A stretch of 43,623 nucleotides of DNA from Methylobacter sp. GTDB taxonomy: Bacteria > Pseudomonadota > Gammaproteobacteria > Methylococcales > Methylomonadaceae. The stretch is from assembly GCF_004322395.1 (NCBI RefSeq), contig NZ_SCTW01000105.1, forward strand, positions 1-43,623, written 5' to 3'. The position numbers and the translations under genes are program-made. Shown here one piece after another: positions 11,924 to 29,812 of the stretch; positions within the stretch are counted from its first letter, which is position 1, and every line of letters starts with the position of its first letter. Below the pieces are notes generated by a model. That model was given only the letters and a program-made list of their open reading frames with translations, did no database searches and was not told the DNA's origin.

Positions 11924-12744
11924 TAGCTTGCCGTAACCATAATGGCCTCGAAAGTCGCAGTAACCTGCTCGCCGGTTCGATATTGCTCATAAGCCGCAAT
12001 CATCCGCTGCATCTGCGCCTTGGTAGTGATGCTTTTATTGCGCCCGGCAATCATGTTATGCGCGCCGATGTGCTTTAATTCCTTCATCAACGCCAAAACC
12101 GAGCCGTAGCTCGATGTATAAACCCTGGTTTCAACCGCTATTTCGGTATAACCCGCTAGCCGAAGAAAGCCGGTCAGCTGCTGTTCGCTGTAAAAATCAT
12201 TGACGTGATTGTAATCGTCGACTTCAGCCCACGCGGCTTTTAATTCCTGTAATGTTTGCGGGCCGAAGGTCGAAAAAACCAGTCTGCCATCCGGTTTCAA
12301 TACCCGCTTAATATCGGTAAAAACGGCTTCAAGATTGACGCACCATTGCAACGCAAGATTGGAAAACACGCCATCGGCGATTTGACCGGCCAGCGGCAGT
12401 TGTTCGGCATCGGCGCATAAATAACCGGCATTAGGCGAATCGGCGAGCTTTGTTCGCGTTACCTGCACCATCGGTAACGCAATGTCCAGCGCTATAACAG
12501 TCATGTAGGGTACGCATAGCGTACCGTTTTCCAAATATTCTGCCGGATTCACTACGCTAGCCAGCAACTTTGCAGTTAAAAACCCGGTGCCGCAGCCCAA
12601 ATCCAACAAGGTTCCGGTCAGGCTTTCGGTATTTACGGTATTCAGCAGCGCCTTACCGACACTGCGCTGCAATGCGGCTACGCCGTCATAGGTAAGCGAA
12701 GCCGCCGCAAATGACTGCCTGATTTTGGCTTTATCTAATTGCAT
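11923..12744 (-). CDS. bioC: Malonyl-ACP O-methyltransferase
   Basis: A 273-residue SAM-dependent methyltransferase. It methylates malonyl-ACP so that fatty acid synthesis can build the pimeloyl chain. The SAM motif LLDLGCGTGFLT starts near residue 46, and LCADAEQLPL and FSNLALQWC follow. The protein is about 20 residues longer than E. coli BioC (251). The excess lies between motif I and the VIALDIALPM strand and reads VVNPAEYLENGTLCVPYMT. That segment is encoded by a short palindromic repeat (see 12505-12530), so it is an insertion into a loop before the second beta strand. bioH overlaps its start by ten bases. Confidence 0.94.
   Translation of the reverse strand: MQLDKAKIRQSFAAASLTYDGVAALQRSVGKALLNTVNTESLTGTLLDLGCGTGFLTAKLLASVVNPAEYLENGTLCVPYMTVIALDIALPMVQVTRTKLADSPNAGYLCADAEQLPLAGQIADGVFSNLALQWCVNLEAVFTDIKRVLKPDGRLVFSTFGPQTLQELKAAWAEVDDYNHVNDFYSEQQLTGFLRLAGYTEIAVETRVYTSSYGSVLALMKELKHIGAHNMIAGRNKSITTKAQMQRMIAAYEQYRTGEQVTATFEAIMVTAS
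12505..12530. repeat. Short dispersed-type palindrome inside bioC
   Basis: The hairpin GGTACGC-ATA-GCGTACC (12509-12525), with flanking TGTA and GTTTTCC, resembles the GTAGGGTACGC...GCGTACC family of dispersed elements that I know from methanotrophs and other bacteria. It falls exactly where BioC has extra residues (reading GTLCVPY), and the reading frame stays open through it. Confidence 0.6.
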
Positions 12745-13649
12745 TGCCGATCCATAAATCCGGAAATAATCTCCAATGTTTCGCGGCTATGCGATAAAAA
12801 CGGCACGTGCCCTGCCCTGTCGATTATGTTTAATTCCAGGCCCGGCAGTAACTGCTGCATTTTTTGACCTACAGCCACTGGAACCAAAGTATCCAGGCCG
12901 CCTAAGATGACCGACACGGGAATATTCAATCCTGATAAAGCCGGCCTTAAGTCTGCCTGTTTCAGTATATTTAAACCGCCCCGCAAGGTGTTTTGATCCG
13001 GCGCATCGCATTCAAACACGGCTGTTTTAAGCGCCTTCAAAAGGTTTTTATGGTCGGGCAAGCCGTTTACCTGCAAGGATAAAAAGCGCAGCAACGTGGC
13101 TTGGCAGTTTTTATTCAAATGTTCGGCAAAATCATTCAGCAGCTTAACATCCATGCCGAGCCATGTTTGCGTTCCCAAGCCGGAGCTTGGGAACGAGGGG
13201 TTTCCTCCGAGTAATATCAGTGAAGAGATCCACTCAGGATAGCGGGCGGCTAGATCAAGCACCACCGTAGCGCCCAACGACCAACCCAGCCAACAAATCC
13301 CCCCCGGCCCCCCTTTTACAAAGGGGGGAGATAGCTTATTTTTTTCTTTTTCAAAAGAGGAAGACTGTTCAACTCTCTCTTTGCCAAAGACGGGGAGTTG
13401 CTCAATCCCCCCCTTTGTAAAAGGGGGGCTAGGGGGGATTATCTTAACCAACTCATCGCTAATCCGTTCCAGCGTAAACGGATCGATTGCCTCGCTACGC
13501 CCATGTCCCGGCAAATCGATGCAGGTTACTTGATAGTTAAGCGCCAATTGCTTCGCAAACTCCCGCCAGATACCGGTATGCATCGCCCAGCCATGCACCA
13601 GCACTATGGGCTTGCCTTGCCCGAACGTTTCTAAATGAATTTTTGTCAC
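12735..13649 (-). CDS. bioH: Pimeloyl-ACP methyl ester esterase with repeat-encoded insertions
   Basis: A 304-residue alpha/beta hydrolase that frees pimeloyl-ACP from its methyl ester. The triad is visible: nucleophile Ser in LGWSLGAT, Asp in GGLDTLVP and His in RAGHVPFLSH, with the oxyanion motif HGWAMHTG at the start. E. coli BioH is 256 residues. The extra ~48 residues lie between the helix ending ISDELVK and the strand CWLGWS, and start IIPPSPPFTKGG and end PPFVKGGPGG. They are encoded by a composite palindromic repeat. A second, smaller repeat encodes part of FPSSGLGTQTWLG. All catalytic parts are intact, so the enzyme is probably active with a surface loop added. It overlaps bioC by ten bases and bioF by four. 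Confidence 0.93.
   Translation of the reverse strand: MTKIHLETFGQGKPIVLVHGWAMHTGIWREFAKQLALNYQVTCIDLPGHGRSEAIDPFTLERISDELVKIIPPSPPFTKGGIEQLPVFGKERVEQSSSFEKEKNKLSPPFVKGGPGGICWLGWSLGATVVLDLAARYPEWISSLILLGGNPSFPSSGLGTQTWLGMDVKLLNDFAEHLNKNCQATLLRFLSLQVNGLPDHKNLLKALKTAVFECDAPDQNTLRGGLNILKQADLRPALSGLNIPVSVILGGLDTLVPVAVGQKMQQLLPGLELNIIDRAGHVPFLSHSRETLEIISGFMDRQCN
13171..13194. repeat. REP-type palindrome inside bioH
   Basis: Two arms, GTTCCCAAGC and GCTTGGGAAC, surround a four-base centre. The same arms occur at 29141-29164 and 29784-29807, in the inverted repeats flanking the RAYT pseudogene. Here the repeat is inside the coding frame of bioH and is translated in the segment PSSGLGTQ. Confidence 0.85.
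13296..13440. repeat. Composite 145-bp palindromic element inserted in bioH
   Basis: The two ends are inverted copies of one unit. The left end reads AATCCCCCCCGG, then CCCCCCTTTTACAAAGGGGGG. The right end is the mirror image, with CCCCCCCTTTGTAAAAGGGGGG then CTAGGGGGGATT. Each end is itself a palindrome, and about 70 bases of AT-rich spacer lie between. This is MITE-like structure without a gene. The whole element is read through in frame as part of BioH (SPPFTKGG at one end and SPPFVKGG at the other). Confidence 0.9.
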
Positions 13650-14833: not shown

Positions 14834-14904
14834 CCACGAAAAGCACGAAAGACACGAAATAAATTGTTTCGAGTATTTTCGTGCTTTTCGTGTTTTTCGT
14901 GGAT
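14834..14904. repeat. Dispersed CACGAAA inverted repeat between bioB and bioF
   Basis: The left arm (TCCACGAAAAGCACGAAA...) and right arm (...TTTTCGTGTTTTTCGTGGA) are near-perfect inverted copies, each made of repeated CACGAAA units. A second, longer copy with the same ends lies at 24645-24785. It separates bioB from bioF and could form a hairpin in the operon mRNA, but it has no proper T-run to act as a terminator. Confidence 0.85.
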
Positions 14905-14921
14905 CAATAGATTTTTCAAGA

Positions 14922-15890
14922 TCAAGCGTAACTTGAACCGCCGGAATGCACGCCCAGCCGATCAAACAAAGCCAAATCATGGTTAGTCATCGGGTTATCG
15001 GTCGTCAACAATTTATCGCCATAAAAAATCGAGTTGGCTCCGGCCAGGAAACACAGCGCCTGCATTTCATCGCTCATATTATTGCGCCCGGCGGACAAGC
15101 GCACCCGCGACTTGGGCATCATGATTCTGGCAACGGCTATGGTCCTGATAAAGATGATTGGGTCCAGCGATTCGGTGCCCATCAGCGGCGTGCCTTCAAC
15201 CTGCACCAGCATATTGACCGGCACGCTTTCAGGATGCTTGGGCAGGTTTGCCAGTTCGATTAACAGCTTGGCGCGGTCGACATCGCTCTCGCCCATACCG
15301 ACAATGCCGCCGCAACAGACGTTAATCCCGGCATCCCTGACCCTTGCCAGCGTATCCAACCGATCCTGGTAGGTCCGCGTGGTGATGACTTCCGAATAAT
15401 AATCTTCCGAGGTATCCAGGTTGTGGTTGTAATAATCCAGGCCGCCTTCTTTTAGCCTGATGGTTTGAGCATCGGTCAGCATCCCCAAGGTTACGCAAGT
15501 TTCCATGCCTAACGCCTTGACACCCTGAACCATTTCCACGACCCGTTCCACATCCCTATCTTTAGGCTGGCGCCAAGCCGCGCCCATGCAAAAACGCGAT
15601 GCGCCTTGATCTTTAGCCTGTTGCGCTGCCTGTAAAACCTTATCAATCGGCATTAACGCCTCGGGCGTTAAATCGGAATCGTAACGGGCGCTTTGCGGGC
15701 AATAGCCGCAATCTTCCGAACACGAGCCGGTTTTAATGCTCAACAGGCTGCTAATCTGAACTTCATTGGGATCGAAATTTTCTCGATGCACGGTTTGCGC
15801 CTTAAAAATCAGGTCATTAAAAGGCAACGCATAAAGCGCTTGCACTTCGTCCAATTGCCAGTCATGGCGAATTGCAGGGTTTGCAGACAT
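14922..15890 (-). CDS. bioB: Biotin synthase
   Basis: A radical SAM enzyme that inserts sulfur into dethiobiotin. The start at 15890 (322 residues, [11 protein letters not shown]) is supported by GGAG nine bases upstream; the open frame extends 15 codons further. The radical SAM cluster motif [11 protein letters not shown] lies near residue 54. YYNHNLDTS and the second-cluster Cys region ([11 protein letters not shown]) follow, as does the Arg in RLSAGR. It is the first gene of bioB-F-H-C-D. A divergent comF gene starts 80 bases away, so the biotin promoter must lie within 15891-15969. I could not see a clear BirA operator. Confidence 0.97.
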
Positions 15891-24644: not shown

Positions 24645-24785
24645 TCCACGAAAGACACAAAAGAAATTACTATGTTCCATTGATTTAGTCATTCACCCTT
24701 TGGGTGACTACCTGCAACGGGTATCTATTTGAATTTTTTCGTGCTTTTTGTGTCACCTAAAGCGCCTACTTTTGATTTTCGTGGA
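24645..24785. repeat. Second copy of the CACGAAA inverted repeat, expanded
   Basis: It starts TCCACGAAAGACAC and ends ATTTTCGTGGA, the same ends as the 71-bp copy at 14834-14904, but is 141 bp long. The middle holds additional material including the hairpin TCACCC-TT-GGGTGA. It appears to be a degraded or expanded copy. Confidence 0.75.
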
Positions 24786-24856
24786 TCAAATGATTTTTCT
24801 AGATTGAACGGTTTTGCGTTGGTTAAGAGTTCAGGCATCGTAAAACGTAAGGAGTA

Positions 24857-29135: not shown

Positions 29136-29190
29136 CGCTGGTTCCCAAGCTCCAGCTTGGGAACCCAGTCTTGGAAGCTCCAGCTTCCCG
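29136..29190 (+). repeat. REP unit left of the RAYT pseudogene
   Basis: A 55-bp unit made of two consecutive hairpins: GGTTCCCAAGC..GCTTGGGAACC and GGAAGCTC.AGCTTCC. It is matched in inverted orientation, with three mismatches, by 29758-29812 on the other side of the transposase. Confidence 0.92.
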
Positions 29191-29196
29191 AGTAAC

Positions 29197-29728
29197 TCAC
29201 CACGCCCTTATCACCTCAATCAACCCGGCCTGTCCGGCATAATTACGTGCGCTGGAATAGCGCCAATGCTCAGGTTGATCTACATAGCCGCGTTTCACAG
29301 GATTTTGATGAATGTAATCCAACTTCTGATGCATAACCGCCTCAGATTCGATGATTTGCGGATGATTGCCTTCTTCCCATACCTGATACGTAGTTTCTTG
29401 TTTATGAGCACGCTTGAAGAACGCAAGCAGTTCCAACAACTTAACCGAGCGACATTGTTCCAGATGCGCGATGATTTGCTTCGCCGTATAAGATTTAAAT
29501 CGTTGCATATCATGACTTAAATCTTCCGAAGCGGCGATAAGATGGGTGATTTTCAAGTATGACATAGCCGTATAGCTGGAAGCCCGAGTCCTGCTGTAAA
29601 AATCGCCAAGAGTCCAGCACAATATTTACGGTTTCCGGGCGGGTAAACAACGGCAGCCAGTGGTTTACCGTTGCGGTTAGGAAGTGTGGACAAGGGTTGC
29701 ATTGGACGCGATAGCGGCTTCTAGGCAT
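29197..29728 (-). pseudogene. REP-associated tyrosine transposase (RAYT), frameshifted in the HUH motif
   Basis: The first part (29728 to ~29546) reads MPRSRYRVQCNPCPHFLTAT... through LYGYVILENH. The second part, in another frame, reads HLIAASEDLSHDMQRF, KSYTAKQIIAHLEQC, and ends HQNPVKRGYVDQPEHWRYSS. Together they make a complete RAYT of about 177 residues. The shift lies near 29545, exactly between the two histidines of the HUH metal-binding motif (two bases lost or one gained). The catalytic Tyr (KSYTAKQI) is present. RAYTs are IS200-like single-strand transposases that act on REP sequences. Matching REP units flank this gene on both sides in opposite directions. As printed it cannot make an active enzyme. 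Confidence 0.92.
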
Positions 29729-29757
29729 GGTTGCCCCTTTGGTGCGGTGATGGGGGA

Positions 29758-29812
29758 CGGGAAGCTAGAGCTTCCACAACTGGGTTCCCAAGCTGGAGCT
29801 TGGGAACCAGCG
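29758..29812 (-). repeat. REP unit right of the RAYT pseudogene
   Basis: The inverted partner of 29136-29190 (52 of 55 bases identical when reversed). Together the two units and the transposase form a REPtron-like module. The core GTTCCCAAGC...GCTTGGGAAC also occurs in bioH. Confidence 0.92.

Follow-up and report, generated by a model that had tools for sequence, protein, structure and literature searches.

The window analyzed here, a stretch of 43,623 nucleotides from a Methylobacter genome, contains genes in the order bioB-F-H-C-D; bioB was recognized by eye and bioF, bioH, bioC, and bioD by profile search. As the earlier note had stated, the bioH reading frame runs open through a palindromic insert, which we call site 1 (Table 1). 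With the NCBIfam model TIGR01738 (bioH), the window's BioH scored 196.9 bits against a cut-off of 206.95, in two stretches that flank the insert; it is probably this splitting of the match that brings the score below the cut-off.

Table 1. Features of the window discussed in the text.
Feature	Positions	Strand	Remarks
bioH, pimeloyl-ACP methyl ester esterase, 304 codons, GTG start	12735-13649	minus	ORF, TIGR01738, and AF2 fold match
In-frame double-palindrome insert, site 1	13296-13440	minus	inverted repeat; ends AAT C6 ... G6 ATT
Palindrome unit CCCCCCTTTTACAAAGGGGGG	13308-13328	no strand	coding-strand reading PPFVKGG
Palindrome unit CCCCCCTTTGTAAAAGGGGGG	13408-13428	no strand	coding-strand reading PPFTKGG
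Probable decayed palindrome copy CAACTC..CTTTGCCAAAG..GAGTTG	13370-13400		read as LPVFGKERVEQ; assigned by eye
Probable decayed palindrome copy	13340-13365		read as SSSFEKEKNK; assigned by eye
Second in-frame palindrome, BioH site 2, CGTTCCCAAGC TCCG GCTTGGGAACG (coding strand), TTCCCAAGC-family REP	13170-13195	minus	11-bp stem
Degenerate REP-transposase locus	29136-29812	minus	55-nt inverted arms; TTCCCAAGC palindromes at 29142-29163 and 29785-29806

The description of site 1 as a 145-bp block with inverted palindromes at its ends was borne out: The two arms (13296-13328 and 13408-13440) are 33 nt each, 94% complementary, and spaced by 79 nt, and the element consists of two CCCCCCTTTnnnAAAGGGGGG palindromes within outer AATCCCCCC/GGGGGGATT ends. 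Its core pattern, with up to 3 mismatches, has 6 matches in the window against a shuffle mean of 0.24, the 6 being overlapping registers at the two palindrome places. By eye, the 145 bp give the impression not of a single conserved MITE body but of a pair of good palindromes separated by decayed copies, and because such copies appear to sit there, the peptide can be read as a PxFxK-like pattern repeated four times (SPPFTKGG, LPVFGKER, SSSFEKEK, and SPPFVKGG, also by eye). The three sense frames of the element contain 5, 0, and 1 stops, and bioH reads the single open one. As RNA, the element is predicted to fold with -90.8 kcal/mol (z -7.8), a stability equaled by 0 of 200 shuffles.

At the protein level, the earlier note had counted about 48 added residues, all in one block. 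Measured against empty orthologues of the genus, the net gain at site 1 is 42 residues (61 versus 19 between fixed points); the main block stands, while the second palindrome, in another loop, adds 4 residues relative to the solved BioH structures. Our AlphaFold (AF2) model, built from a 57-row alignment, has a pLDDT of at least 90 in 231 of 304 residues and below 50 in residues 77-115, inside the insert, and its nearest PDB folds are the BioH structures 4etw and 1m33. The modeling that the earlier note had proposed therefore predicts an intact BioH fold with the insert as a disordered loop. Ser124, Asp253, and His281, which we take to be the catalytic triad by analogy with E. coli BioH, are invariant across the alignment, in agreement with the claim that the catalytic residues remain. 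In terms of the fold, site 1 presumably lies where the nucleophile strand starts on its N-terminal side, distant from the active site, and site 2 presumably runs into the lid. The site-1 DNA very probably gives the enzyme a floppy loop of about 42 residues: From the reading frame, the purifying selection on the gene, and the model, we infer that the insert is translated and that the loop is part of the BioH produced.

Between carriers of the insert, the dN/dS of the BioH core is 0.125 (G000, the window's genome, and G001), 0.137 (G000 and G019), and 0.221 (G019 and G021), and between empty pairs, it is 0.123, 0.143, and 0.171. These values (w 0.12-0.22) indicate that the core is under purifying selection. 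They also bear on the idea that the window's BioH represents a pseudogene in decay or an artefact of assembly, which its score below the curated cut-off and the division of the genome into 157 contigs might suggest. This idea is scarcely credible: The low score is probably accounted for by the split match, the core has evolved with a w of 0.125 relative to another carrier, and homologous inserts occur in independent assemblies and in an isolate. Furthermore, a second bioH, which the earlier note had named as evidence against its reading, was not found in the window's genome by our TIGR01738 search, the next match having only 54.6 bits and being part of another protein.

In our protein search with BioH, a match was obtained in 100 of 101 genomes, including the window's own. 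Alignment of the related proteins showed that within the genus Methylobacter, site 1 is empty in 17 of 23 genomes, reading ELVNxIPEQSCCWLGWS or similar, and filled in 6: G000, G001 (a MAG from Lac Pavin), G019 (the isolate Methylobacter tundripaludum SV96), G021, G013, and G017. Apart from SV96, most of the carriers and relatives are MAGs. Among the best 80 named loci of a longer list, which excludes the window's genome, the spacing before LGWS is enlarged by an insert in four (L193-L196, from G001, G019, G021, and G017, that is, four of the six carriers); in 7 of the 80 the spacing was unparsed and was judged normal by eye, and L227 has a 5-residue difference elsewhere. The empty state of G015 and of G007 (Ca. 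Methylobacter titanis) was read from contiguous match coordinates and from loci L199 and L197. We looked for inserts encoded by unrelated codons, which would have spoken against the earlier note, and all six inserts are palindrome DNA or a form resembling its decay. The insert of G021 is one 46-nt palindrome with 44 of 46 letters self-complementary; in that of G019 (L194), which is decayed, no perfect 8-bp stem remains; and in the short form of G013, 14 of 37 letters are self-complementary, no better than in shuffles. The insert of G017 (L056) has DQLVEIIPP..PPFSKG twice, host sequence and element being repeated together in tandem, apparently showing growth via duplication across the insertion edge.

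BioH is one host among several. The strict pattern CCCCCTTTnnnAAAGGGGG has 25 matches in the window's genome, and its backward control has 0. This mapping of the genomic copies, another check that the earlier note had suggested, showed, by our own ORF reading, that 16 copies lie within genes, in frame and flanked by host sequence to either side, that 6 are located at C-termini, and that 3 are intergenic. The in-gene hosts are HsdR, HsdS (twice), PgeF, CcmI, BioH, DUF748, MurG, an AMP-ligase, a ketosynthase, and an E2 acyltransferase; six of the eleven in-gene places, DUF748 and BioH included, have two matches each, and HemD carries a looser copy. Pfam identifies ten host proteins, and in HemD and DUF748, a single domain match runs across the insert. 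The pattern is present in 40 of 101 genomes, the window's counted, and the hosts in relatives, named by eye, include LeuRS with a five-unit array, a DapC-like aminotransferase, CoaBC, and HolB. In M. tundripaludum SV96, palindromes are present in PgeF, HsdR, HsdS, a ketosynthase, and a DapC-like aminotransferase. Judged from these sequences, in-frame palindromes are a genus-wide set in Methylobacter and not specific to BioH.

We relied on our own ORF reading for the window's genome because a coding-score script was too noisy at 150-nt windows and was set aside, having called the PgeF insert "unclear." Of 66 places in five genomes, this script called 17 internal and in frame, 31 edge, and 12 unclear, and it called 6 broken or in another frame, these comprising 2 in the window's genome, which are gene junctions by our own reading, 3 in G019, and 1 in G008. 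A second script, applied to 43 places in 40 regions of relatives picked from the pattern matches (2 regions had no hairpin), returned 15 internal, 20 terminal, and 8 noncoding calls; the in-gene share in relatives is therefore no clean majority. Of additional note, a type I restriction cluster in G000 (C12:74.8-78.6 kb; L004, L010, and L015) has seven palindromes within 4 kb, in and between its genes, which encode HsdR, HsdM, a DUF559-like protein, and HsdS (HsdM and DUF559 by eye), and its layout matches in G001 (L113) and in M. tundripaludum SV96 (L313). In LeuRS of G012 (L323, 1014-3737, by eye), the five-unit palindrome array stands before KYWLPVD, and a different insert near the N-terminus, DDCMDAGGRATQGAVAE, is like one nested in MurG of G008.

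Inserts recur at the same loops in different species. MurG and PgeF were each found by protein search in 22 of the 23 genus genomes. The MurG linker carries the C5T3 family in 12 of 22 genomes, with another palindrome nested in it in G007 and G008 and in much reduced form in G016; 10 genomes lack it, namely G009, which has a different palindrome, and 9 others, of which G003 is longer for other reasons. The PgeF loop is filled in 11 of 22 genomes, G016 having a 28-nt remnant, and empty in the other 11, for G020 and G005 as read from contiguous match coordinates. Across species, the BioH, MurG, and PgeF loops occur in empty, single, and double states, and those of BioH and MurG also house unrelated palindrome families. 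On a three-gene tree, these states require at least 6 changes for BioH (G002 and G014, both empty at site 1, were left out of this scoring), at least 7 for MurG, and at least 9 for PgeF, counts that do not separate gain from loss and come from a tree with 8 of 20 inner branches open; gain, loss, or exchange is therefore frequent.

The elements are 28-214 nt long, and within each gene, their lengths hold one remainder modulo 3: in 6 of 6 cases for BioH, in 9 of 9 for MurG (9 of the 12 C5T3-type linkers, the nested or reduced ones of G008, G007, and G016 being omitted), and in 9 of 11 for PgeF, where the 2 deviating elements have open ORFs and differ because their ends were cut differently. Continued translation demands such a constant remainder. 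This bears on the possibility that a post-transcriptional process (splicing, translational bypassing, or protein splicing) removes or skips the element, so that mature BioH has its normal length. The computed GC-rich double hairpin in the bioH mRNA would fit this possibility, and translational bypassing elements elsewhere, the byp hairpins of yeast mitochondria, are GC-rich hairpins. Bypassing or splicing needs no open frame, yet the remainder is held and the only open sense frame of the element is the one used; no obvious intron or intein features were seen. We therefore consider removal or skipping highly improbable.

The recurrence is also visible in hairpin density. Perfect hairpins with a stem of at least 8 number 6 in 1080 nt at BioH site 1, 6 in 1296 nt at site 2, 8 in 1851 nt in the MurG linker, and 12 in 1791 nt in the PgeF loop, as against 3 in 15591 nt, 7 in 23172 nt, and 6 in 15546 nt in the remainder of these genes. 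The four loops are thus 14-29 times denser in perfect hairpins (p at most 1.4e-5), and a second PgeF loop, located in part of the genomes, has 3 hairpins in 951 nt (p 0.012); these p-values are descriptive since the loops were chosen after inserts had been seen there. The BioH sites of G015 and G007 and site 1 of G012 were not located in this census.

PgeF of G015, a MAG, has recently acquired a whole element, precisely and in frame. This element, of 98 nt, is absent from the sister G007 and from G002, G022, and G018. The PgeF locus is mostly 95-100% identical between G015 and G007, falling to 91-92% just before the element and to 87% at its far edge, and the immediate flanks in G015 are G007-like on both sides right up to the element. 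The element with its short flanks, spacer included, is 96% identical to that of G019, and the other PgeF windows of G015 and G019 are 56-93% identical, mostly 75-90%. Since no other copy among those listed in G015 or G019 matches it as well, the source is most likely a PgeF allele of a G019-like cell. In this one pair, about 7 nt of the target were lost and no target duplication was formed; the gain may have come about by recombination at microhomology or by transposition.

The palindromes appear to be conserved as DNA. In the BioH, PgeF, and MurG pairs, Pro/Gly third positions are conserved in 16 of 17 cases in the hairpins versus 71 of 118 in the host genes (p 0.006), and over all 11 pairs, in the forward direction, in 42 of 47 versus 356 of 547; the filled partners were picked, the 3 named pairs having been fetched by protein search and the rest by hairpin. 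A first version of this test required the hairpin in both genomes and was dropped as biased for that reason; the values given are from a repeat of the test in which one genome alone defined the hairpin. In single PgeF palindromes, the linkers covary (TAG/CTA in G021, GAG/CTC in G013, and TGC/GCA in G011). Among the 10 single palindromes, self-complementarity surpasses every one of 500 plain shuffles in 6 and does not in 4 (BioH of G013, MurG of G001 and G022, and PgeF of G016), and the score of the 10 with their own right arm is 0.72 versus 0.58 with a foreign one, as compared with 0.78 versus 0.80, no difference, in composites. Because composites show no difference and 4 of 10 singles have lost the excess, any demonstration of compensatory upkeep is limited to single palindromes. 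The conserved third positions would not be predicted by pure neutral decay; hairpin-templated correction, renewed insertion, or selection on the mRNA would explain them.

This conservation of third positions above the level of the host gene might also indicate that the loop is adaptive, for instance in binding ACP or another partner, in regulation, or in co-translational pausing, and that the palindrome is retained for this. The repeated use of the same loops and the placing of inserts between conserved blocks, as in the MurG linker, would agree with such a role. Against it, the insert interiors diverge freely in sequence and length, the C5T3 insert is missing in 17 of 23 genomes for BioH, 11 of 22 for PgeF, and 10 of 22 for MurG, one site holds unrelated palindromes, and the inserted loop is predicted to be disordered. 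An adaptive loop thus seems unlikely to us, and the loop would rather be near-neutral. One could also propose that a few housekeeping loops are true hot spots: Palindromes would home to them, would move as a unit between orthologous genes in separate species, leaving their flanks behind, and would have their palindromy actively maintained at the DNA level by hairpin-templated repair or an mRNA function. We offer this proposal tentatively, as conceivable but doubtful; if it were true, the genus would possess a permanent apparatus for inserting disordered loops into essential enzymes and for revising them.

The palindrome at BioH site 2 belongs to another family, with 35 forward matches genome-wide at up to 2 mismatches. 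In the window's BioH, its loop, GNPSF...WxGM, contains TTCCCAAGCTCCGGCTTGGGAA. The degenerate locus of Table 1, whose palindromes are of this same family, lies 16 kb from bioH and includes a broken gene for a REP-associated tyrosine transposase (29197-29622; NF047646, 60.7 bits, E 1.4e-16, below the cut-off of 80). The site-2 repeat is thus a dispersed palindrome that flanks a transposase gene of this type, broken in the window copy, and can be regarded as a candidate RAYT-mobilized REP. In relatives, the site-2 loop is plain in some, holds the window's palindrome in G018, GTAGGGGCGACCGGCCGGTCGCCC in G008, G009, G012, and imperfectly G021, the ATTCCGGC type in G006, and a long insert in G014 (L215). 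Like GTAG REPs, the palindromes of G008, G009, G012, and, imperfectly, G021 begin with GTAG. We also considered site 1 as a GTAG REP mobilized by a RAYT and rejected this, since its unit, unlike GTAG/CGTC REPs, has no such tag, its flank being AATCCCCCC plus a variable linker (inner linkers TAG, TCGA, TGC, and GAG). Y1/RAYT-type transposases are present in all four genomes queried, and none was tied to the site-1 unit.

A mobile cousin occurs in G001, the genome with the most pattern matches (69). Its dominant repeat is a 102-bp element with GTAG/GTAA ends, which contains the AATCCCCCTCGATCCCCCTTTTTCAAAGGGGG unit found in some in-gene elements. We fetched the surroundings of the first 50 of the 69 matches, and 29 copies fit the full element: 22 of these 29 scored copies have exact 8-bp duplications and 0 of 29 are read through. 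Some matches among the copies (L107-L146) lie near contig ends (C4:65, C17:70, and C39:107). GTAA ends and 8-bp duplications are, we assume, marks of the IS66 family, and since IS66 transposase fragments are present in G001, we label this MITE IS66-like. The in-gene copies that we read lack its GTAG/GTAA ends. With 16 of 25 copies in genes in G000 versus 0 of 29 full 102-bp elements in G001, one unit thus takes two forms, transposable outside genes and frame-keeping within them. The earlier note had called site 1 a "MITE-like palindromic element." Its palindromic nature holds, given the 33-nt arms. As to a MITE, which has a body and terminal inverted repeats, site 1 does have inverted ends, and the body varies in content and, at 28-214 nt, in length. 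Unit MITEs with target duplication were rejected for the in-gene copies on the loss of target without duplication in the PgeF pair of G007 and G015; since this is the single clean empty/filled pair, the term MITE is not established for them.

Rickettsia palindromic elements (RPE) were reportedly described by Ogata and colleagues in 2000 and 2002. According to a review (PMC10969869), RPE are palindromic repeats of about 150 bp that lie in frame in unrelated protein genes, with a peptide thought to be tolerated by the fold. The likening of site 1 to RPE in the earlier note seems apt in the sense that the elements work alike: Methylobacter palindromes also lie in frame in several unrelated protein genes (ten Pfam-named hosts) that are conserved. 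Unlike in RPE, the host is a free-living methanotroph, the palindrome of about 45 nt stands alone, pairs, or forms arrays, and unrelated families occupy one loop in different species. According to Di Nocera et al. (2013; PMC3733652), intragenic GTAG/CGTC REPs of several bacteria occur singly, as dimers, or in clusters and encode 43-82 residues, flexible linkers or loops are suggested to be REP-tolerant, and recB of two Xanthomonas species has different REPs at about one site. Thiomargarita nelsonii, an uncultured large sulfur bacterium, has MITEs inside metabolic genes (PMC4853749), and those described disrupt genes such as hupL, whereas the Methylobacter frames stay open. As the elements work like RPE and the intragenic REPs of Di Nocera and colleagues, their kind is already known. 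Among the open-access papers listed, judged by title and opening of the abstract, we found no description of these Methylobacter elements, of multi-family loop reuse in a free-living genus, of one unit in two compartments, or of the PgeF natural experiment. The novelty lies in the recurrent occupation of the same loops by several palindrome families, in a genus that is free-living, and in the conservation of the palindromes at the DNA level.

Based on our findings, we consider it highly probable that a REP-like mobile palindrome has been kept as a tolerated loop in BioH, as one of many in Methylobacter. In its two-palindrome form, it would have inserted into a surface loop that joins a helix to the strand running up to the nucleophile elbow and would have been kept, being read in its single stop-free sense frame. 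The product would be a disordered loop rich in Pro, Gly, and Lys (SPPFTKGG...PPFVKGG), with the alpha/beta-hydrolase fold and the catalytic triad predicted to be intact. Such elements would reach a small number of permissive loops, where they would become longer as palindromes are added or duplicated, would be cut back to single ones, and would decay; selection would filter them only for an intact reading frame and for being tolerated.

The best-known in-frame palindromes are those of Rickettsia, intracellular bacteria in which decay of the genome could account for them. Here, they are found in MurG, LeuRS, HemD, BioH, and E2 of free-living methanotrophs, enzymes that are essential or central. 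Because close relatives show empty, single, double, and nested states of one loop, the passage from mobile DNA to protein sequence can be tested with alleles of one enzyme that have or lack the loop. The split proteins also carry a warning, as domain models and annotation can misread them, in the way that TIGR01738 does with the window's BioH. In addition, the start of BioF (14850-14980 of the window) has an odd stretch, DPRKTRKARKYSKQFISCLSCFSW..., overlapping a 32-nt repeat that is also found at 24773-24804; this N-terminal stretch may be an intergenic repeat read as an extension, or the start may be wrongly assigned.
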